DNA from: Branchipolynoe longqiensis
Lineage: Eukaryota; Annelida; Polychaeta; Phyllodocida; Polynoidae
Direction of reading: 5' to 3'
Assembly (NCBI GenBank): GCA_030323885.1
Contig: CM059187.1
Coordinates: forward strand, 83,598,027-83,662,026
Length of the DNA: 64,000 bases
Below are positions 2,233 to 54,534 of the stretch, in pieces. A model generated the notes under the pieces. It saw nothing but the letters and a program-made list of their open reading frames with translations. It did no database searches and had not been told where the DNA came from. The translations under genes were made by a program, and so were the position numbers. How positions within the stretch are numbered: position 1 is the stretch's first letter; each line of letters begins with the position of its first letter.

Positions 2233-2990
2233 AGTACCTAGCAAGTTATAAGATATGTGAATAGAATCAATAAAGCTGGAATACTATTCAACATGAAGAT
2301 GAATGCCAGGAATACCAAAACAATGGTTATAAGTAAAATGAGAGATAAACCAAATATCAATATAACCATAGATGGCACAAACATAGAACAAGTATCCGAA
2401 TTCATATATCTCGGACAAAAGATTACAAATGATGGGAGATGTGAGGAAGAAATTAAGAGAAGGATAACAATAGCCCAAACAACATTCTCCAAAATGTTTA
2501 GAGTGTTAACATCAAGTAAGATACTAATACATACAAGGAAACGTATTCTTCAGTGTTATGTGTGGTCAACTCTAATGTATGGGGCTGAGACATGGACAAT
2601 CTCTAAGAAAATGTACAAATGTTTACCAGCATTTGAGATGTGGACTTGTCGAAGGATGATGAAAATATCATGGACAAAGAAGATCACCAACAAAGAAGTT
2701 CTCAGAAAAATTTTAAATAAGAAAAGCTTGTTTGCCACTATACAGACAAAGAAACTTATTTATTTTGGCCACATCATTTGTCAGAGTTCAATATACCGTA
2801 CATTGTTGGAAGGGAAGGTGAATGGCAGCAGATGGAGAGGAAGACCAAGAACATCATGGTTTACAAATATTTCACAGTGGACAGGCTTGAATTATTCACA
2901 GTCTATCAGAACAGCACACCATCAGGACAAGTGGAGAACCATTGCATCCAACCCTCAACTAGAGGACGGAACTATTGATTGATTGAGCTA
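2233..2990 (+). pseudogene. RTE-like non-LTR reverse transcriptase, 3' end
   Basis: An open frame of 241 codons (2257-2982) encodes the C-terminal part of a LINE reverse transcriptase. Visible family marks are a YLGQKIT motif, LMYGAETWT (LYGAETW box), FEMWTCRRMMKISW, YFGHII and RGRPRTSW, in the order typical of RTE and related clades. The catalytic YADD box and the endonuclease lie upstream and are missing, so this is a 5'-truncated insertion, the usual product of target-primed reverse transcription. It ends with a stop codon within a short ATTG repeat (2975-2986), like the simple-repeat 3' tails of RTE elements. The frame is uninterrupted, which suggests a fairly young copy. An R4/Dong-type assignment is an alternative. 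Confidence 0.8.
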
Positions 2991-7643: not shown

Positions 7644-9620
7644 TTTATTTACGCCTCAGACAGAGCATACAGGTCATACAGAGTAACAAGAGGACAAATA
7701 GAAGTAAATAAGGAATAATCTGATAAATGTAAGGAAGCTCATGAGGAGCGGAGTAATGAAGAAGTTCAGTTAATCAAGTGTCAGTGGAGTGAGGGGGTGC
7801 CGAGGAGCCCTCCACCAAAAGGCGGAGAGGGCTCGCGGCGCGCCCGAGGGTGCGAGGCGGAGCAGGTGGGGTGGGCCGGCCGAGAGGTGGGCCGCGTCGG
7901 GGGTCAGGCTCCCTCTGGGGGCGGCGAGTGTCCGGGGCCTGCGTCGACAGGGAGCGGGCGGCCAAAAAGGAGGAGGCCCGCTCCTTGGCGGGATCCGGTG
8001 AGGAGGTCCGACGAGGGTCGAGCAGGGGGGCAGCGAAGTCCTCAGGGCTGGGTGGGGTGGTGGTCGGGGTCTGGGCGGGGGTGTTGTTGAAGGCGGTGTC
8101 GTGAGGGTCGGCGGCAGAGGGTTCCTCGTGAGGCTGGGCTGGGATGTGGTCCGAGGCGTGAGGCCCGAGGTGATGATCCCCGGCTGGGACTATGCGGCGC
8201 TGCGATCGGTGGTCGCTGGGAGGCTGTCGGTGGAGGTCGCGGGGCTGTCGGCAGTGGTGAGGGTGAGGCGCCGGGAAGGGCCCCCGGGCCGGCCGGGGGG
8301 AGGCCGGCGGATCAAAAATCCGCCGAGGTGGGGGGGGTCTGGCGCTCACGGGCTTGCTTGGTTATGCATTCGGCCTCGCAGTGCATAGTGAGTATGCGCC
8401 TCACGTTCGCGCAGTAGGCGCATGCGTGACGGCGCCTGTCCCCCGCCTCGCCGTGGGCCTCCCCGACGGGGGCCCGATCGCACGAGGCGGGGTCCCGGTT
8501 CCAGGCCGGGCAGGGAGCCCCGTGAGTGTGCCTGTCGTAGGTGACTCGGGCGTCGGCTTGGACTCGGGGGAGGTGTGGGCCTCGGTGTGGAGGGTCGAGT
8601 GGGCGGGCGGGGGTGCTGGCGGCTTGGTGGTCGGGCATGGCGATACACTCGACTCTCAGGAGGTTGATAGCTACTGGGTCATGCCACCCGTGGGGGAGTC
8701 GACCGTCCGCGATCCAGGTGAATACGGTCTCGGAGTACCGACGGACGGTCTCCCAGGGGTAGGTGAGGTTGTCCCGGGAGACTGTAAGGTGGTGGTGGTG
8801 GAGTCCCTGGGCGGAGTGGGCGGGGAAATCGGGATGGTCGATGAGGGTGAGAAGGGCGAGGGCGTACTCGTCCTTCGTTGCCTCGCCCCTCTTGACCGGT
8901 GTTCTCTCCGGCCCCCTCTGCACCAGGTCGGAGGGAAATATATAGTCGGCCGGGATACCTTGGCGGCTCACGGAGCGTCGCGCCTCGGCGGAGGCCAAGA
9001 TGTCCCGGACGGCGTCGGCCGCGGAGGCGGGGCTGTACCGGGTGGGTTCCTCCTGGTAGGCCCGGGACGTGGTGGGCGCGGCTTGTGTAGCAAGGTGCCG
9101 GTACCTCTCGTATTCCGGGTGCGCCGCCCCGGGCAGGGTCGCCTGAGGCGGCGGCGGGGGGCGGGCTGTGGCGGTGGTGCGCGCCCGAGGCGCTGGGGCG
9201 GCCGCGGAGGGGCGGGCGGCCTGGGCGGGCGCCGGGGCGGTCTCCAGGGCCTCCATCCGGGCGTGAATGTCGGCTGCATTCTGGCGCACCTCGGCGGACA
9301 TCTGGCGCTGCTCGAGGCGGATGCACTGGAGTGCCTCGAGTATTGCCGAGATCTCGGCGCCCGAGGTGCGGTCCAGGGCGCCGCGGGGGACGCCGTAGCG
9401 GAGGCCAGGGACTCGTCCCGCCGGGGCGTTGAAGATGGCCCCGGGGTGCGGGGGGCGGCCCGGGAGCCCTTCCGTCCTCGTCCCTTCCCTCGAGGCATGG
9501 TGTAGAGTGAGGTGGAGCAGCAATCCGAGGTGGAAATCCAAAAGGTGAAAAGGCAGAGAGCTGGGAGACGGCAGGAGGGCGAGTGCCTGAGGGAGGCCGG
9601 CGGGCGACCTTATAAGGGAG
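7644..9620 (-). mobile_element. GC-rich retroelement-like transcription unit
   Basis: A sharp compositional island (about 7790-9830, visibly GC- and CpG-rich against AT-rich flanks) contains minus-strand open frames. Read on the minus strand it has a TATA-like TTATAAGG at 9608-9615 upstream of the frames and an AATAAA signal at 7644-7649 downstream. I found no long terminal repeats, reverse transcriptase or integrase around it, so it looks like a partial or non-autonomous retroelement, or a domesticated gag-like gene. Confidence 0.45.
7774..8349 (-). CDS. Pro/Arg-rich open frame overlapping the gag-like ORF
   Basis: A 191-codon frame with no ATG at its upstream edge (GTG at 8349). It overlaps the 3' end of the gag-like frame by 38 bases and ends 125 bases before the AATAAA. 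It is rich in Pro, Arg, Ala and His and shows no recognisable domain. It could be a frameshift extension of the upstream ORF, or simply open because the island is GC-rich and stop codons are rare. Confidence 0.25.
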   Translation of the reverse strand: MSARPPPPRRIFDPPASPRPARGPFPAPHPHHCRQPRDLHRQPPSDHRSQRRIVPAGDHHLGPHASDHIPAQPHEEPSAADPHDTAFNNTPAQTPTTTPPSPEDFAAPLLDPRRTSSPDPAKERASSFLAARSLSTQAPDTRRPQREPDPRRGPPLGRPTPPAPPRTLGRAASPLRLLVEGSSAPPHSTDT

Positions 9621-9829
9621 GAGGGACGGGCGACAGCAGGTGAGTGTGAAAGCTGCCGGCCCGGGGGAGGGCGAGAGGTGGCGAGCAGCGGCGTCGGGTG
9701 AGGCGTGAGTGCTGCGCGACGCGGAGGGCGGGGGAGGTGGCGGCGCGCCGCGCCGTCTGCCGAGGTGAGAAAGCAGCGCGACAGCACGGGGCGGGGGAGG
9801 GTCTCTTCCTCTCCTCGCATCAAACGCAA
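8312..9829 (-). CDS. Gag/ORF1-like protein with coiled coil and Cys/His C-terminus
   Basis: A 505-codon open frame. The first 110 or so residues are Pro/Arg-rich and probably upstream read-through, because the TATA-like box lies inside them. An ATG at 9498, in another frame, is the nearest start downstream of the TATA box, so a frameshift near 9490 is possible. From about residue 158 to 196 there is a heptad-like coiled coil (SAILEALQCIRLEQRQ), then a Pro/Ala linker. An aromatic/charged core at 320-390 includes YPWETVRRYSETVF. The C-terminal Cys/His cluster has C440, C450, H468, C470, C473, H483, C484 and C488. Coiled coil plus core plus C-terminal Cys/His cluster is the layout of structural ORFs of LTR or tyrosine-recombinase (DIRS-like) retroelements. 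The exact class is uncertain. Confidence 0.5.
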   Translation of the reverse strand: MRLMRGEEETLPRPVLSRCFLTSADGAARRHLPRPPRRAALTPHPTPLLATSRPPPGRQLSHSPAVARPSSLIRSPAGLPQALALLPSPSSLPFHLLDFHLGLLLHLTLHHASREGTRTEGLPGRPPHPGAIFNAPAGRVPGLRYGVPRGALDRTSGAEISAILEALQCIRLEQRQMSAEVRQNAADIHARMEALETAPAPAQAARPSAAAPAPRARTTATARPPPPPQATLPGAAHPEYERYRHLATQAAPTTSRAYQEEPTRYSPASAADAVRDILASAEARRSVSRQGIPADYIFPSDLVQRGPERTPVKRGEATKDEYALALLTLIDHPDFPAHSAQGLHHHHLTVSRDNLTYPWETVRRYSETVFTWIADGRLPHGWHDPVAINLLRVECIAMPDHQAASTPARPLDPPHRGPHLPRVQADARVTYDRHTHGAPCPAWNRDPASCDRAPVGEAHGEAGDRRRHACAYCANVRRILTMHCEAECITKQARERQTPPTSADF

Positions 9830-9834
9830 TGCTT

Positions 9835-10178
9835 CGCATTACGACCAATGCATTTCATTTGGGTGCAATAATCATCTTGCCTTTAAAGTGGCACGATAGA
9901 TGTTAGAAGTGAATTAAATCTTGAGAAATGAGAATAGGAAAAGAAAAGCTATGATGTCCTCACATGATTAATAATCCTCAGAATATTAATAAGTTTTTAT
10001 TTTAATCACATAATTCCAGGATCAAAGGACAGGTTTCTGACTCAGAAAGTCGGCTAAGCCTGTGATTTATTTCAAAAGGCTGTTTGTTTGGTTTAGGACT
10101 TTCTTTTTTATTATTAATATATGTGTTTATAATACCATGATACTATGTCTGCCTATATTGTCAGTAGAAACAAACCGG
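9835..10178. other. No gene recognised
   Basis: AT-rich spacer following an abrupt drop in GC content. Confidence 0.4.
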
Positions 10179-19490: not shown

Positions 19491-20318
19491 GCAATGACAC
19501 AGAATGAGCATCCTTGCTCATTCCAAACAGTTATACACCTAACATGTTTGTGTAAATTCTTATGGATGTAAAGCCAGTACTCCACTGCTGAGAGAGAAGA
19601 AACTATTCAGAGGAATAACATTTTCACCGAAAATTACAAATTGCATTAATCAAGTGATTGATCGAGTGATTGGAGGTTTCCGGTACTAGGAACATCTAAG
19701 TTCATACCATGATGATGTTACCTGGTTGATCTGTTGATGTTGATCCTGTCTTCTCAAGACCTAACCAGGTGTAACGTGGATCTTTCTAAGATTATATCCC
19801 TATCTGCTGTGGAACCTGATAGGGCCATAGTCCCGGGTGATAAGAATCCCTGGCACGACAGGGCGTTGACCTTTTTGGTGATCTACTTTATTTAGTGAAT
19901 CCTTCTAATAATACAACCCTATAAGCGAAGATGCCATCCCAGAGTGCATTTATTGTCAATCTACGTTATCTAACATGTATATCGTGCTGAATATATCATG
20001 CTGGAGGGGTGGGTTATTGTTGTTTTTTTTGTTTTCTTTTATGGGATGTTTATGCTGTCCATAACATATAAGCTCAGATGATTGAGGTTGTTTTCAATGC
20101 TGGGCAATTATCGGTGTGTGTTTCTTAAAGTTATGGTTTGTGGTTAGTGAACTATGTTAGTTTTTTTGGATTTTCTTGGCAAGAGTTTTCCTCTTTTATT
20201 TTTGTCCTACACTTAATTCTAGACTAGCCTACTCTATTTACATATTATAGGCTTGTAGGTAATAGGTGGTTGGTTTATGTTTGCATTTGATGTTATCTAT
20301 CTGTTTTCTGGCAGGGGG

Positions 20319-20912
20319 TTACCTCTCATGGGCTGTCCAGCTGGTGGGCCATGACATATCACATGCCCCCTTGTGGAGTAGCTTCGAGGGGGTTCCTGGT
20401 TTTATTTTGCACAGATATTCTTTGTATGTTTTTAGGTCAGGAATTTGTTGTTCCTTTACCATTTGGGCATTCCATCCTTTGACAGCCATTTCCAGTAGGC
20501 TTCTTTCATGAGCTTTGATTTGGCTTCTGGTCTGCCTTAGTAGTGGTGCATTGTTTGCTCTGGTGTTCCTTAGTGGTTGGGTTAGATGATTTTTGTCTCG
20601 ACTATATCCATACACAAGTGTTTTTAGGTGGATTTTCCTTCTATTTTCTAATAGTTTTACTTTAGAGCTTTTGTCTCTGTCATAGGTGGGGTGCAGTTTG
20701 TCTACTTTGAGGCAGATCTTTAGTGCTCTATTTCGCAGTATTTGCAGTTTGTTTAGTGATTCTTTTTTAGCACCCATGTAAGTTACATCCCCATAGTTGA
20801 AGTAGGGGAGCACCATACCTTTGAAGATGTTTATTGACATTTCTTGTGTCATATAGTTTCTTAGTTTTACAAATAGCCACAGTTTGTGGTTTATTTTTTG
20901 GATGATTTTCAT
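20319..20912 (-). pseudogene. LINE reverse transcriptase, C-terminal part
   Basis: 197 codons beginning NHKLWLFVKLRNYM and including LPYFNYGDVTYMG and NRALKICLKVDKLHPTYD, the thumb and connection region of CR1/Jockey-like RTs. It aligns along its length with 23614-24200. The catalytic YADD box is not in this fragment. Confidence 0.8.
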
Positions 20913-21461
20913 TATACATAGGTTGTAGTTTAGCTAGCTGTCCAGCTCTAGGCCTAGGTATTTGTAGTGATTTACGTTTTCTAATATTTGGTTTCCTAGC
21001 TAGCATTGTAGGTTTCTTTCTGGCACTGATTTATGTGAGAAGAGCATCGTCTCTGTTTTTTGTGATGTTGTTTATGTTTTGGTGTAAATGGCTTTTTAGC
21101 ATTTCTTCTGAGTAATTTTTGGGGATCTGCCCATCTTGTATTCATAGTGATTTGTGCTTTTGAGTTTTTTCCTGGTTACATATATATTAGCTCATGATCA
21201 CTTATACCCCAGCTTCTAGTACCCTATTTTATGGCATGGTTTGAGTTGGTTAGTTTTAGATCAATTGTTCAGCTGTTGTTGCATAGCCTTGTGGTTTCAG
21301 TAATGAGTTGATGTAGGCCTAAGATTTTGATAGTGGTTTGTAACATTAGTTTATTTTTGTGATTGCTGTTGTAGTTTACATTGAAGTCCCCTAGTACAAA
21401 GATTTCTGCACTTGTTAATTTTCGCACTGTTTATGCTTCTATCTAGGGCTTCAAGGAATAC

Positions 21462-21770
21462 TTATATGTCTCCTGACAGTGGTCTGTAGAGGCTTGCTAT
21501 GGCTATGTTTTTTATTATGCACCACAGTAGTTCCATGTGTTCATTTGAAAGATTTGCTGGTTTTAGAACTTCAGTGTCTAGGTTTTTGGAGGTTTTGCAG
21601 TAAATACCAACACCTCCACGTTTTTTTGTTTGGTTTGTTATATTACTTTGTTGTCTATCATTATGTACAAGCCTATATCCATCTATGTTGAGGGTGTTGT
21701 ATTGGTGCATGTCATTGTACCATGTTTCTGACAGTGTTAGTACATCATGATTTTCATTTTCTAGGTGCAT
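21462..21770 (-). pseudogene. LINE endonuclease (EEP) fragment
   Basis: Encodes the N-terminal half of an exonuclease-endonuclease-phosphatase domain: LTLSETWYND carries the catalytic Glu of the SETW box, and KRGGVGIYCK and IASLYRPLSGD follow. The family enzyme nicks target DNA to prime reverse transcription. The GDFN and SDH catalytic boxes are missing downstream, so it is inactive. Confidence 0.8.
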
Positions 21771-22229
21771 TTTTATTATGTCAATTTTTTTGGATGCACT
21801 TTGCCATTTTTTTTAGGTTAGTGGCTGCTTGATTTCGTGAGTTTTAACTTTGTTTAGATTTAATATGTATTAATTACTGTTTTGGGGTGAATGTACTAGT
21901 GCATGCAGCACATAGAGCCTTGTTAAATTTCCCGATATTTAAGACATTGGTGATGGTGTGAACTAGTCTATAGTAAATTACAAATGGTCTATAAAAAAGA
22001 TAAATGGTATATAAAACCAAATGCATATAGGATTGTGTAGTATTGGTGATCCATTACTGAGTTAATATGGACATTGTGTATTATAATAGATAGTTTGAGA
22101 GGGACACTACTTGTAATGTGACAGAGCCTTAGGAGTTCTGTGCACATACCCCCCAAATGTTATTTACAGATCACTGCACACCCAGACACAACAGGGCACT
22201 GTAGACATAAACAGCCAAGGCTTGGTTGC

Positions 22230-23035: not shown

Positions 23036-23613
23036 CTTAAACGACCAGCTTCTAATTCGCTGTCATCGTAATTCGCAGTTGATGGTTTGTTGATTTGAAT
23101 TTGGCATGGGTGGAGGTGGAGCGTGCTTGTTTGTTGCTATGCTCTTCACACCTCCTTTTGACCTGCCATGAGAGTTCTAAAGCTTTTCTCCTGATCATTG
23201 TTTTATTTAAATTTTCTTCTTCTTTTTTTAAATTTTTATTGAGGCTGTATTTATACTGTCCATAGCATATAAGCCCGGGTACCCAGGCTTGTTTTCAATG
23301 CTGGCCAGTTGTAGTGTTGGTGTTATCTTACCACACAGTGGCTGCTGATAAGGTATTTGATTGCCTGCATTTCAGTAGCAGATAGATAATTGGTTGGTAT
23401 GGTTAATAGCCTATGTTAGTTTTTTTGGATTTTCTTGGTATATATGTATTTATTTTTCTACTCTTATTACTAGACTAGCCTACTCCTATTTACATATCAT
23501 AGGCTTGTACGTAGCTGTGTGGTGTGTTATCTGGCTACTTTTGGCATGGTTACCTTCCATTGGGCGTCCCGCTGGTGGGCCGTGACATATCACATGCCCC
23601 TTTGCAGTGCAGC

Positions 23614-24937
23614 TTAGTGGGGGTTTCCTAGCCTTATTTTGCACAGATATTTTTTGTAAGTTTTTAGGTCAGGAATTTGTCGTTCCTTTACCGTTTGGGC
23701 ATTCCACACCTTGGCAGCCATTTCCAGCGTGCTTCTCTCATGAGCTTTTATTTGGCTTCTGGTCTGCTTTAGTAGTGGCGCATTATTTGCTCTAGTAGCC
23801 CTTTGTGGTTTTGTTAGAAGTTTAATGTTTTGACTATAGCTATATGCTAATGTTTTCAAATGAATTATTCTCCTATTTTCTAGTAATTTCACTTTGGTTC
23901 TTTTGTGTATGTCATAGGTGGGGTGCAGCTTGTCTACTCTTAGACAGATTTTTAGGGCTCTGTTCTGCAGTGTTTGCAGTTTTTTTAGTAGTTCTTTTCT
24001 CGCACCCATGTAGTTTACATCTCCATAGTCAAAATAGGGGAGCACCATGCCCTTGAAGATTTTTATTGACATTTCTTGTGCCATGTAGTCTCTTAGCTTT
24101 GCAAATAGCCACAGTTTGTGGTTTACTTTTTGTATAATTTTATTTATACGTAGGTTGTAGTTTAGTTGGCTGTCCAACTCAAGGCCTAGGTATTTGTAAT
24201 GGTCTACATTTTCTAGTTTTTGGTTTCCTAACTTACAGTGTAGTTTTCTTTCTGGCATTTTGGTTATTTTGTTGGACTCACACCACTCATCTAGTTTTAG
24301 TAGGAGTTTATTTAGTTTAGTTATTACCTCGTCTTCTGTGGTGCCATTTTTGTATATGACTGTGTCATCTGCATATAGTTGGAGGCATTCAGTTTGCAAC
24401 CATTTTTCAAGATCGTTTATATAGATTATAAAGAGTAGTGGCCCTAACACAGACCCTTTGGGGTACACCACATGTGACAAGTTGGTTGTCTGATAGCGTC
24501 TTGTTTATTTTTGTTTTCTGTTGCCTGTTGTTCAGGTAGCATCTTATCCAATCCATAGTGTTGGATTTTATGCCCATGGTTTTTAGTTTTTCCAGTAGTA
24601 TTTTGTGGTCTACTGTGTCAAATGCTTTGCTGAAGTCAATGAAGGCGGCTCCAACTAATTGTTTTTGGTTCATTGATGCCATTATGTCATTTGTTAGGTT
24701 AGCTATTGTTTTTGATGTGGAGTGCAGTTTGATGTGGTTTTCGTTTAGTATATCGGTTTTTTCCAAGTGTTCATTGATATGTCTATGTAACACTTTTTCA
24801 ATGAGCTTGCCTGGGGTTTGAAGAATGGATATTGGCCTGTAGTTTCCCATGTTTTGTTTGTCTCCACCTTTGTGAATGGTGGTGATGGTTGCCATTTTCC
24901 ATGCTGAGATAAAACGCCCGTGCTCAAAGGAGATGTT
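23614..24937 (-). pseudogene. LINE reverse transcriptase
   Basis: The RT starts at ISFEHGRFISAWKMATITTI with IHKGGDKQNMGNYRPISIL, then motif A AFIDFSKAFDTVDHKIL, and after a frameshift at about 24480 GSVLGPLLFIIYINDL and motif C LQLYADDTVIY (catalytic YADD). The thumb and C-terminus follow to 23614 and match LINE copy 1. Apart from the frameshift the catalytic residues are intact. Layout and motifs suit the CR1/L2/Jockey side of non-LTR elements, while the L1-like RRM in ORF1 is shared by several clades. Confidence 0.85.
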
Positions 24938-24939
24938 TG

Positions 24940-26014
24940 TTTTCCACCATTCCGGTGTTCTCCATATTTCTTTTGCCATTGTCTTTATCATAAATGGATT
25001 GTCTGCATTGTCAATCATCCTCATTATATTGTGCTTTTCATGGAATTTGGCCATTATCGAGCTGTAATATTGCTCAGCTGATGTGTATTTTTTCCCATCT
25101 TTTCCTGTGATGTCACACTTGTACAAGTTGCTGAAGGGGGAGTTGTGTCCTTGGAAGGACACTCCCCAGGCATGCTCTCTGGTTGCTGCTTTCTCCGGGG
25201 TGATATCTGTTATCTCTATTTTTCCAAATTGTTTTTGTTTTGGAGAGTTTTCTTTTTTTGGAAGAGCTCTTTCTTTTGTGATACCTTCTCCAGTTGTATT
25301 CTGATGCTCCTTGGTCTGTTGGTTTTTTTTTTTTTGTTCTGAGAGAGTGGATCTTTGGGTTACTCATCCTATTTGTTTGCCTTTGGCCTGCTTTGTCTGC
25401 AGCATTTGTTTCTGGTGCTTTTTCCTTCTTTTGTTTTTTTCCTAGACGGTAGGCTTTTGTCACTACCATCCAGCCAAAATCGCAGTCTGCTTCATTTAGC
25501 ATGTGTGTAGCCATTTCTTCTATGTTTTCATCCTCCTTTTCTGGGATGTCATGTACGATGATACTAAGCTTTTTATCCTCAAGTTTTGGTGCTTGGGTTT
25601 GGGCTGCATCCGCGGGTGGCTTCTTTTGGCCAGTGGGCATTGCCCTTGCGTTGTTGGTATTGGTGTTTACGTTTGTGTTGGTTTTTTTATCTTTAGTTTT
25701 TTGTATTCTGTTTTGTACCACGTGCATTCTATTTGCAACATGTTGTAAGCCACCTGGAATGCCTGAAGTTTGCTCCTGTATTCGTTCTCGTTACCCGTTG
25801 TAGATGTTTTGATTTTTCCGTCCTCATTTCCAGTGCCGTCCGCTGTATTTCCATCATTTCCATTCACACGTTTTGTGTTTGCCTTTTCCTTTTCCAATTC
25901 CTCCTTTACTGTTTGAATTACCAGCCTTATTATGTCTTCCTTGACTAGCTGCTGGCCTTCATTTCCGCTATTTCCACAATGTTCTCCAGGTTTTCGCCAT
26001 TTCCCGCCATTTTT
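24940..26014 (-). pseudogene. LINE ORF1: coiled coil - RRM - CTD - NADAR-like domain
   Basis: Read in its successive frames, the ORF has a Lys/Glu-rich coiled coil (KEDIIRLVIQTVKEELEKEK, about 25940-25870). An L1-type RRM with LSIIVHDIPEKEDEN and VTKAYRLGKKQ follows (about 25577-25415), then a CTD-like KIEITDITPEKAATREHAW (about 25225-25170). From 25162 come GHNSPFSNLYKCDI, GKKYTSAEQYY and NPFMIKTMAKEI. This last block fits the first half of the NADAR family (E. coli YbiA has FSNF, DGK, TSEHY and PMVAARMG in the same order). NADAR proteins act on ADP-ribose-linked substrates; some are reported to remove ADP-ribose from guanine bases. The C-terminal half is lost at the deletion. Frameshifts make it a pseudogene. 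Confidence 0.65.
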
Positions 26015-26239
26015 AATGGTTAGTTTTAGATTGTGTTGTTTATCCTCCTGTTAATTCAGGAGATTCCTCCTGGGTGTTGTTGTGTTTACATGCCTGGGTC
26101 CATATCCTATGGTATCCCGGGGTGTTTACAAGGAAGATCCACTTAGATTTGGGTGTTACGCATGGATTTGAACATTGGTTCTCACGTTAATCAGCGTCCA
26201 CATTTTTCAGCGTCCACCTCCTGTCGCCATCTTGGTCGC

Positions 26240-27410
26240 TCTCTTCAACAACGAAAAATTGTCAATCTACGTTATCTAACATCTATATCATGCTGAATAT
26301 ATTATGCTGGAGGGGTAGGTTATTGTATTTTCATTGAGTTACAAGTGTGGCAATCTTCCATTTCTAGGAAAGAACCAATTTAGTGACTGATGACGCACGG
26401 TCCTTACCCGGATTAGTGTTACTTGCAGTGTAGTGAAATATCTTTCACTCAGAATTCACACGGAGTGGTAGCTGGTGAGTGAGATTCTGAGAGAATGGTG
26501 GGGCCGACTCACTGAGGAGTTGATCCACTGTGTTCCCATGTCATGTATGTTTTATAGAATGGTCTAATATATGAAAGAATTAGTAATAAATTCTCGGAAA
26601 ACTTATATGCAAGAGAAATGCTTCAGAGATAATTACAGAGACGTTAGAGAAGAAAATGTTTATTGCTATATATTCTGCAGAAATATATAAACAGCAGCTG
26701 GTACAGGAAAGTGTGAATTGGAGGTTCCAAAGATGACACTAAACTATAATTGTCTTCATTCAATAGGAACAGAGCTCATAGCAACCATAGCATAATAGTT
26801 TATGGACTTTTGTTTGGAGAATTGAGCTGCTAACATGGTTCAATTTCACAATGGTATGTAAACCATAGTAGTGTGACGAACAGCTTTCTGGATCTGCCTG
26901 GAGAATATAGAGCTGGCACTGGAGTTGCTTCAACTGTGATGGTCCTCTTCCCGGTTATTCCGCAAAGGTCAGAACAGAAGTGACCTGCCACAGCCAAGCC
27001 GGATTACAAATATCCTCCCACAGGGTGTAGCTGCTAGCCACAAGTGGAACGGTCCACTATAGGGACCACCCCCTTGCTAGTGTACTGCCACATGCTGACA
27101 CTTCTGACCTGTAAGGGCCACTCGAGAGCGCCACCATGTGGTAATGGTGCTCATTACGAACATTGACTCTAGTAACTTAACTGACTGAGGTGCCCCTGAC
27201 ACCTCCACCTTCCTCCTCCAACTAATGACCTAACGGCGACCTGGGATCTGTGCCCCTGTGAGATGTGGATATGCTTACTGTAGAGGCTTCTAAGGGCATG
27301 GTCCCATCTCATAGCCTGTGTGCTGCAGATGTAGATGGCCTTCAGCGACGAAAAAAAGCACGCGTCTGTAGCTACACCACCTGACAGACCAGAGTATCTG
27401 GCTACAACTA
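26240..27410. other. No gene; repeat of the LINE-cluster flank at 26262-26325
   Basis: 26262-26325 repeats 19955-20020 (TGTCAATCTACGTTATCTAA and onward). The remainder shows no coding signal or recognised repeat. Confidence 0.45.
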
Positions 27411-36922: not shown

Positions 36923-37022
36923 CTAACACACAATTCATTTTTGTATTATTTTGATTATATTCAGATCTGCGAGCGACGAGAAGATGCTGGGCGGATGTTA
37001 CCCTCCTCGTGTGTCGGCCTAG

Positions 37023-37492
37023 ACGTCCCAGCCCACACACACACACTCCCACATCGCCAACAATGTCGGGGGACTACTCTGAGAGCGTGGCTCTCTTCTC
37101 CAAGCCACAGAGCGTCTACAACGGTCAGCCGGGAGAGGGCGCCACCGGACACAACACTCAAAACGGAAGTCTGCCAGACGGCGACTATGCGTACACGGAA
37201 CAAAATGGCGCCGCGAAGGGATCGAATGGCGATGGGCCTCCCAAGAAGCCGACCCAACAGGAAACGGCCTGGGTGCCACCGGAAGAGGAAAGCCCGAGCT
37301 TTGACGAGATCATGGGTTCCATCCACGAGAAGGCGATGAGCGTTGTGGGGTTCGGACGCATGCAGTGGATGCTGTACGTGGTGCTTGGACTATGCATCAC
37401 GGGGGATGACATCGAGCTTGTACTGACGGCCTACGTGTTACCGGGAGCCGAACGGGAACTGTGTATGGATGGCCGGATGAAGGACTGGCTAG
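37023..37492 (+). CDS. SV2-like transporter, first coding exon
   Basis: ATG at 37063 (A at -3, a good context) opens 143 codons plus one base, ending at the donor CTAG|GTAAGT (37492/37493), phase 1. The N-terminal about 80 residues are a polar cytoplasmic tail. Residues 96-102 are GFGRMQW, and the first membrane helix spans roughly 101-127 with acidic residues D115, D116 and E118. It is followed by LPGAERELC. SV2 proteins have the same order (GHGRFQW, DGVE, LPSAEKDMC), so this is a member of the SV2/SVOP branch of the major facilitator superfamily, a vesicle membrane glycoprotein in animals. Two acceptors are possible: after TAG at 37022 (pyrimidine-rich upstream, preferred) or after CAG at 36964. 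The latter would add two out-of-frame upstream ATGs (36984, 36995). Later exons were not found. Confidence 0.85.
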
Positions 37493-38042
37493 GTAAGTTC
37501 AGTTTCGCTAATTAGACACCGACACCGCATATGAGTTTAAAGTTGGATTTATTTTTCTTCGATAATGAGTCAAGTAGTAAGCACATGTCAATTTTAGTAA
37601 GCACAATTAAGTTTCGTAGAATAAGCACAGTGAGGTAATCAATGAGTTATGCACAAAGAGGTCAACAAGCTTTTAACCCTATGCCCTATATAGTCTTTTA
37701 GCAGGGGTGGGCGGGATGGCAGTTCAGAGCCCGCCAGTGTCCTCCTGTGGCCGTGTCGAAGTGAGCTCTCTGCCGCTGAGACGGGCCTCATATAGCCAGT
37801 TAGTCCGCTAGTTCGAGCTAACGACCGCAGAGGGCAGGTCGGACAGGCAGAGCCAGCATTCTCGAAGTATTTACGTATCAAAGAAGAAACCAGGCGGCGC
37901 TGGCGTATAAGTCAGAAAGAACCACCGGCGAAAGTAGCTAGGTGGCAGCACCTGTATTATGCTTAAGGCTGTAGAGCTATGGCGGCGATCGAATGCCAAA
38001 TTACCCGTGTTGCTGAGCATCACGAACAATTGGGTAAGATGT
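37493..38042. other. Start of SV2-like intron; no further gene
   Basis: Begins with the GTAAGT donor. The 80-codon minus frame at 37639-37881 has no recognisable domain. Confidence 0.5.
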
Positions 38043-51846: not shown

Positions 51847-52937
51847 AGCTGCATAGTCCGATGAAATATCAAATTTTCAAAACCAAACCAATTGCAGTTC
51901 ATGCCAGAGTCTCTTAGGATTTTGCTTATACTTATTTATCTGGTCTAAACAGTGCCTAGACTTGGCTTTTCGCACCTCGTTTCTGGCCTTCCTGACCATA
52001 CATTCAGCTATAAATTGATCCCCAGGGTCTCTTGTTATATCTGATTTCCGAATGAAATAATCTCTGTCCTGTTGTAATTCTAGGAGTTCATTGTTCAAAT
52101 AACCAGCTGTTTTGTTTCTTATGTCAAGTCTAACCAGGGGACAGTGTTTGTTTGCACCATTGACAATCATTTCTTGTATCATGTCCCAGCATTTGTTTGG
52201 ATCTTCCTCTGATAGTAGTTCTGCTGTATTGTTTTCCCTCAAAGTGGCTGCTAGATCATTGAAGTTACAATTCCTGTAGGTGCGGCCCCAGTAGATGGTG
52301 GTTCTTTTGTCATTTCTGGGCTTTTTCTTTATTATATATATTGGTTCATGGTCGCTTATATTGTAGTTCAATACACCTGATTTTGTACAGTACTTGATAT
52401 TAGTGAAAGCAAGGTTTATTGTTTTTTGTGTGGTCCTTGTTACTCTAGTCGGTTGTTTAATTACTTGCTGGAGTTCATGTTCTGCCGCAAATTGTTTCAT
52501 ATAGCCTGCAGGTGGGTGCCTCTTAGGGCTGTAGTCAATGTTAAAATCACCAATTAGGAGCACTTCATACTTATTAATGTCTGGGATCTGATTCAATGAC
52601 ATGCTTATTTGCTCTATTGCTTCATTTATGTTTCCATTCGGAGGTCTGTAGATGTTACCTAATAATATTCTTTTTGTGTAGGGTCTAGTTATGACAGCCC
52701 ATTGGAGTTCAATGTTTGGATTAGAGCAATTTAGTTCCAAATACTTGTCTGCATCCACATGCTGGTCAGTCCTGCAATAGATCCCTAAACCTCCATGTTT
52801 GCACTCAAAATATCTCAAAAGTTTACCATTTAAAGTAAAAGTAACTTTGAACTAATGTAAAGTGCATATTAGTGATCGATCTAATATATTTATCTCAGAA
52901 AAAATACAGAAATTCTAAACCATCGGACTATGCAACC
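51847..52937 (-). mobile_element. Family R MITE carrying a LINE endonuclease segment
   Basis: TTAA at 51843-51846 and 52938-52941. The outer 50 bases on one side and 130 on the other are family R. The middle of the MITE is replaced by about 900 bases of LINE coding sequence on the minus strand. Junctions are at about 51890 and 52798. Confidence 0.75.
51877..52818 (-). CDS. LINE endonuclease (EEP) open frame
   Basis: 313 codons without a stop or frameshift. Starts within MITE sequence (TTG or a later start) and then HGGLGIYCRTD, GNIYRPPNG, VLLIGDFNIDY (catalytic Asp/Asn box), VTRTTQKTINLAF and YNISDHEPIYI (SDH catalytic box), followed by a linker towards the RT. The N-terminal catalytic Glu (SETW box) is missing, so the nuclease is incomplete. 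The stop lies in the MITE arm (LQLVWF then stop). No catalytic RT follows. Unlike other LINE pieces here, the frame is fully open. Confidence 0.8.
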   Translation of the reverse strand: MRYFECKHGGLGIYCRTDQHVDADKYLELNCSNPNIELQWAVITRPYTKRILLGNIYRPPNGNINEAIEQISMSLNQIPDINKYEVLLIGDFNIDYSPKRHPPAGYMKQFAAEHELQQVIKQPTRVTRTTQKTINLAFTNIKYCTKSGVLNYNISDHEPIYIIKKKPRNDKRTTIYWGRTYRNCNFNDLAATLRENNTAELLSEEDPNKCWDMIQEMIVNGANKHCPLVRLDIRNKTAGYLNNELLELQQDRDYFIRKSDITRDPGDQFIAECMVRKARNEVRKAKSRHCLDQINKYKQNPKRLWHELQLVWF

Positions 52938-54234: not shown

Positions 54235-54475
54235 CCTCTCTATGCCAAGAAAATCCAAAAGAAACTAACATAGGCTACTAACCATACTGACCAACTGTCT
54301 ATCTGCTACTGAAATGCAGGCAATCAAATACCTTATCAGCAGCTACTGTGTGATAAGATAACACCAACACTACAACTGGCCAGCATTGAAAACAAGCCTG
54401 AATACCCGGGATTATAATTCTATGGACAGTATAAATACAGCCTCAATAAAATAAAATAAAAAATTGATTTAAATA
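54235..54475 (+). mobile_element. LINE 3' UTR, same family as 20-26 kb
   Basis: The reverse complement matches 23242-23425, ending in ACAGTATAAATACAGCCTCA and an AATAAA-rich tail. Fixes the true 3' terminus of the LINE. Confidence 0.8.
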
Positions 54476-54534
54476 AATAAAAAGGCATAGCCTGTGCCAC
54501 CAACTAGATGGCGACTTAAACGCTTGAAATACAC

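Follow-up and report, generated by a model that had tools for sequence, protein, structure and literature searches.

A NADAR domain with an altered phosphate pocket in the ORF1 protein of a LINE family that has a decayed copy in Branchipolynoe longqiensis

NADAR domains of the YbiA family are known chiefly as enzymes that strip ADP-ribose from DNA bases. Their presence in retrotransposons has been described: several Tx1-type long interspersed nuclear elements (LINEs) of Crassostrea gigas, taken from Repbase, carry a NADAR in open reading frame 1 (ORF1), one Ectocarpus Gypsy lineage carries an acquired NADAR in Pol, and the authors suggest a role in processing RNA intermediates (PMC12477816). 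Given these two cases, the fusion of a NADAR to a LINE ORF1 is not new as such. Here we analyze a stretch of 64,000 nucleotides from the annelid Branchipolynoe longqiensis (contig CM059187.1; the window), in which a dead LINE copy on the minus strand retains half of a NADAR. Like the oyster elements, this family has a YbiA-family NADAR in an animal LINE ORF1, and like the Gypsy lineage it is a retrotransposon with an acquired NADAR. Its intact relatives keep the complete domain and the carboxylates of the active site, and their aligned sequences point to a phosphate pocket that has changed in the same way throughout.

In the window, the motifs FSNLYKC, DGKKYTSAEQYY and NPFMIKTMAKEI share a single open frame on the minus strand (24407-25363); an earlier interpretation made from the letters alone (the sequence-only reading) had called them NADAR signatures. 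A profile search bears this out: Pfam NADAR (PF08719) matches frame residues 73-143 (25147-24935) with an E-value of 5e-4 and 20.8 bits, covering profile positions 9-89 of 163, and the score stays under the curated cut-off of 35.1 bits because only about half of the domain is present. The segment is 80% identical to the relative P0002 over 99 residues (tblastn, E 1.7e-53). A profile of eight relatives built without the window finds the window frame at E 2.9e-43, compared with a best E of 0.26 among 10 base-shuffled windows; together, identity and control rule out chance resemblance. All seven relatives that were scanned (P0001-P0004, P0007, P0011 and P0012) score above the cut-off, with matches that begin at profile position 9 or 10 and reach 160-163 of 163, and the domain has the YbiA fold of a NADAR. 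The closest solved structure by sequence is a Phytophthora NADAR, 8bau (weak, E 0.01), and the best match in a viral structure library is the unnamed protein A0A1L3KHQ1, at 27% identity. The sequence-only reading had placed the domain at 24940..25420; NADAR and linker occupy 25231-24935, and 25420-25234 belongs to other parts of ORF1, read in two additional frames.

Four relatives emerged when 5.8 billion proteins were searched, and two of these reach 81-82% identity across the NADAR region. A second search, with a profile built from the four, brought 11 matches, 10 with a precomputed Pfam NADAR, and pooling yielded 12 proteins (P0001-P0012); part of the N-terminal end is missing from P0001, P0008 and P0009. 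The domain is present in 11 of the 12, the exception being P0010, a 175-residue frame that ends before it. In the intact relatives the NADAR is complete and lies C-terminal to the coiled coil, single RNA recognition motif (RRM) and C-terminal domain (CTD) that define a type II LINE ORF1, with the same fusion point in P0002, P0003, P0004, P0005, P0006 and P0007. The NADAR is part of an L1-type ORF1 protein in these relatives, in the domain order that had been proposed from the window alone. To our knowledge, human L1 ORF1p carries no NADAR. In architecture, that protein (PDB 2yko/2ykq) is a close known system.

The LINE ORF1 label is less certain for P0011 and P0012, since their N-terminal parts match those of the main clade only weakly in a profile comparison (probability 45.5, E 2e-4). 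Both fall outside the main clade in a tree of 21 NADAR domains with mixed supports; the tree covers neither the partial domain of the window nor the incomplete protein P0009, and eukaryotic and RNA-virus NADARs are missing from it. The cluster of P0012 contains 8 sequences, and its longest contig measures 997 kb. Scans of viral contigs with ORF1 and ORF2 alignments, and of genome contigs with the ORF1 alignment, confirmed no relative; the ORF2 alignment picked out six distant fragments of LINEs from bacterial bins among the genome contigs (24-33% identity), and, at E 0.01, none of the 12 ORF1 proteins matched any of these.

In 8bau, the distal ribose is bound by two glutamates, E43 and E125, and the pyrophosphate by K50, R79, W89, R93, W133 and D130 (PMC11543638). 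Both active-site glutamates have equivalents in 11/11 relatives; the window retains E43, and the part with E125 is deleted. The W89 tryptophan is likewise found in all 11 and that of W133 in 10, both being present throughout the nine main-clade proteins, and R79 is represented by lysine in eight of these nine. P0011 has retained the lysine along with the two glutamates and the two tryptophans, and lacks the aspartate. By comparison, 11 phage or plasmid NADARs all have lysine at K50 and aspartate before the WG motif; these were chosen from 70 listed matches of a search with P0011, whose residues the set may favor. As read from the alignments, the phosphate pocket is altered alike in all nine close relatives, and the carboxylates and the fold are kept. 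The sequence-only reading had proposed an ADP-ribose eraser, which in that form is unsupported: the glutamates are kept in every relative, the phosphate-binding lysine of guanine-ADP-ribosyl hydrolases is missing from 10 of the 11 and the aspartate from all.

The NADAR is also well conserved relative to the RRM and CTD. In one alignment of relatives, 9 of 10 pairs show higher identity in the NADAR than in either of these domains; the pairs were hand-picked, share sequences and are not independent. For P0002 and P0003 the counts are 88/160 in the NADAR, 32/86 in the RRM and 23/53 in the CTD, and for P0002 and P0004 they are 70/155, 25/86 and 14/52. All are protein identities rather than ratios of nonsynonymous to synonymous substitution rates (dN/dS), within domain limits that we set from a model of P0002.

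To place the element, we used the window reverse transcriptase (RT) as query, bridging its frameshift (region 144-583 of 583); the search gave 7040 proteins, 120 of them listed, from 7978 scored candidates. One of those listed, P0040 (952 residues), has an endonuclease and an RT by Pfam, as the ORF2 of an APE-type LINE would, and is 42% identical to the window RT. It comes from the same source ('lgn') as the intact ORF1-NADAR protein P0007, and each lies on a contig of 6169 bases. As that source contributes only seven of the NADAR proteins and three RT proteins among those listed, chance agreement on this size is unlikely, and the two are probably on one contig. No such pairing was seen for P0002, from a contig of 4594 bases, or for P0013 among the RT matches listed. 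The motif GVPQGSVLGPLLF occurs in the RT of P0013 and, across the frameshift, in that of the window. Of the 120 RT relatives listed, 108 have the pattern GxPQGxxLGP, none has RQGC and 12 have neither; the counterpart in human L1 ORF2 is RQGCPLSPLLF. We take the GVPQGSVLGPLLF / GxPQGxxLGP form to be of the CR1/L2/Jockey type and not L1/Tx1, and the motif suggests that the ORF2 partner of the NADAR-ORF1 is probably not Tx1.

What might the domain do? At a probability of roughly 0.4, we favor an enzyme that cleaves N-glycosidic bonds with an altered choice of substrate and so would aid the element against host ADP-ribosylation or RNA processing. By analogy with human L1 ORF1p, the ORF1 protein would trimerize on the RNA of the element, so that each ribonucleoprotein (RNP) would bear several NADAR domains. 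These would cleave a ribosyl or ADP-ribosyl bond on the element's RNA or complementary DNA, on target-site DNA or on a partner in the RNP, helping the element past the host. Because carboxylates and fold are kept and the phosphate pocket is changed alike in all nine, a specialized enzyme appears slightly likelier than a dead one. Several observations weigh against catalysis or against a need for an eraser. The lysine of the E. coli C7 NADAR that corresponds to K50 (K95) is essential for efficient hydrolysis (PMC11543638), and the K50 equivalent is methionine in P0001-P0009 and in the window and alanine in P0012, with lysine in P0011 only. At the D130 position the nine main-clade proteins have a proline next to a gap, P0011 an asparagine and P0012 a glutamate, and the R93 equivalent is non-basic in all nine (Asn, Ser or Ala). 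Conservation does not favor the NADAR everywhere, since P0003 and P0005 share 50/53 residues in the CTD and 144/160 in the NADAR, and P0002 and P0011 share 6/17 in a short coiled-coil stretch and 46/158 in the NADAR. Finally, a review assigns PARP1 and PARP2 a part in L1 insertion (PMC8535693), which places ADP-ribose at the site; PARP activity aids L1 there, which leaves no obvious need for an eraser.

The same losses underlie the reading in which the NADAR is a non-catalytic ORF1p module that binds nucleic acid, ADP-ribose or protein and aids RNP assembly, its glutamates kept for structure or binding. We consider this quite possible, as the lysine and aspartate that contact the pyrophosphate are gone from all nine main-clade proteins while the domain remains well conserved; the retention of both glutamates and both active-site tryptophans in the same nine speaks against it, as does P0011, which retains the lysine as well, though not the aspartate. 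A different doubt concerns the integrity of the locus. A host or foreign NADAR gene fragment lying beside a LINE by chance has nothing to recommend it except the decay of the window copy, and it is refuted by the intact fused relatives with their common fusion point. The sequence-only reading had regarded intact members without the segment as a sign of such a neighbor. Of the 12 relatives found by ORF1 only the truncated P0010 lacks the domain, in a search that was seeded with NADAR-bearing ORF1s. Members without a NADAR may exist, as the close ORF2 relatives P0013 and P0014 have no NADAR ORF1 on a contig of the same size among those listed.

The window copy itself could also be a chimera of two LINEs, formed by insertion or template switching, so that the ORF1 fusion is real and the RT partner misassigned. 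The copy is truncated and frameshifted, as had been claimed from its letters: pieces of P0002 (503 residues) match along it in three reading frames, and residues 269-326 (the RRM end and the bulk of the CTD) and 426-503 (the second half of the NADAR) find no match in it by tblastn. The CTD segment reported by the sequence-only reading is thus present in the intact relatives and largely missing here. The NADAR ends at P0002 residue 425 of 503, where the RT, starting at P0013 residue 521, joins directly near 24934; a frameshift separates the two RT parts, and the copy has no endonuclease. The main copy is therefore dead and internally deleted: the RRM end, the greater part of the CTD and the second half of the NADAR are gone, as are the endonuclease and the start of the RT region. 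No target-site duplication of at least 8 bases was found for it between 26220-26340 and 23120-23240. A younger LINE inserted into an older ORF1 was rejected as an explanation, since no second half of the NADAR lies beyond the RT (tblastn, E up to 0.1); the sole other match there, 33 residues of the early NADAR part of P0003 that fall within the RT at 24058-23960 (E 0.028), was taken as chance. We prefer deletion or template switching as the origin of the NADAR-RT junction. A misassigned RT seems unlikely to us. The abrupt join would fit it, as would the unpaired state, among the RT matches listed, of both P0002, at 80% identity the match to the window NADAR, and P0013, the best RT relative (54%). 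Against it stand the shared source and contig size of P0007 and P0040, the common strand and order of ORF1 and RT, the absence of the NADAR remnant that an insertion would leave, and the internal deletion of a second copy in the window (Table 1).

Table 1. LINE features in the window
Feature	Coordinates	Strand	Basis
End of ORF1 linker and first half of NADAR	24935..25231	-	P0002 residues 327-425, tblastn 80% identity
ORF1 segment, second half of RRM	25234..25356	-	P0002 residues 228-268, tblastn 68%, different frame
ORF1 segment with first half of RRM	25395..25649	-	P0002 residues 130-214, tblastn 62%, different frame
ORF1 N-terminal segment, helical/coiled-coil region	25691..25963	-	P0002 residues 27-116, tblastn 65%
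Reverse transcriptase, first part	24458..24937	-	P0013 residues 521-683, tblastn 58%; RVT_1 E 3.2e-17
RT second part and C-terminal region	23632..24462	-	P0013 residues 682-972, tblastn 53%; RVT_1 E 1.8e-10
3' untranslated part of the LINE, putative ends	23202..23613	-	23202-23442 recurs at 54241-54477, 90% identity
Probable 5' leader of the LINE, putative ends	26010..26245	-	upstream of ORF1 match; 69-bp repeat starts at 26258
Second copy, same LINE type	20049..21803	-	endonuclease 21803-21179 joined to RT end 21047-20400 (tblastn, P0013)
3'-end piece, same LINE family	54241..54477	+	blastn 90% identity, 243 bp

The coiled-coil assignment agrees with helices at residues 34-54 and 80-119 of P0002 in a low-confidence model (four-row alignment, predicted local distance difference test score (pLDDT) 58). 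The second copy is 80% identical to the main copy over 887 bp of DNA, and no NADAR was found in or just above it; between 21000 and 22600 the ORF1 proteins gave short non-NADAR matches only, at E up to 50. Like the main copy, it and the 3'-end piece are incomplete. A 69-bp sequence at 26258-26326 and 19952-20020 (94% identical) adjoins the 5' end of the main copy and the 3' end of the second, and is perhaps a preferred target or belongs to another repeat. Elsewhere in the window, 51880-52851 (-) holds the endonuclease part of a more distant LINE (Exo_endo_phos_2, E 2e-8; 29% identity to P0013). An open frame at 36958-37515 (+) resembles synaptic vesicle glycoprotein 2A/2B at its end (E 1.3e-9 over residues 116-181) and is probably an exon of a host gene, in keeping with an animal genome. 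Two open frames, at 8315-9838 (-; 508 residues) and 2242-2979 (+), have no Pfam match at E 0.01; the latter presumably resembles the end of an RTE-type reverse transcriptase.

How does the family compare with known NADAR systems? The oyster elements are called Tx1 (PMC12477816), from which the window RT, with the form described above, probably differs. No other published retrotransposon NADAR was found in a literature that included few subscription journals. Within that scope we also met no published account of a partner that is probably not Tx1, of this ORF1 architecture and the structures it matches, of the conservation counts or of the altered pocket. More speculatively, and we regard this as doubtful, an animal LINE lineage outside Tx1 may have taken up a NADAR into a type II ORF1 independently of the oyster Tx1 and Ectocarpus Gypsy elements. 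Its pocket would then have been reshaped to give an enzyme that rides on the RNP and acts on a new substrate, under stronger selection than the RNA-binding domains, and P0011 and P0012 would be further captures. If the RT belongs to the Jockey superfamily, the family would add a domain to the ORF1 types of an earlier survey, whose main text does not name NADAR (0 occurrences; PMC4120745). The nematode protein SNA-3 also places NADARs, one of them without YbiA-type residues, in RNA processing; it is a host trans-splicing factor with three NADARs, and the available part of its description mentions no LINE ORF1 parts (PMC9303266). Together with NADARs in RNA-virus polyproteins (PMC9503650), SNA-3 shows that NADARs also serve in settings that involve RNA. 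If the LINE domain works, nucleic-acid ADP-ribosylation or another ribosyl mark may bar retrotransposition in invertebrates, and the element would indicate where to seek it. Compared with the NADARs of Phytophthora nicotianae (8bau) and E. coli (YbiA, 2b3w), the LINE main clade has methionine for K50, no D130 and a non-basic residue at R93, and the uniform loss of lysine and aspartate in so well conserved a domain offers a direct test for NADAR substrates beyond ADP-ribosylated guanine.
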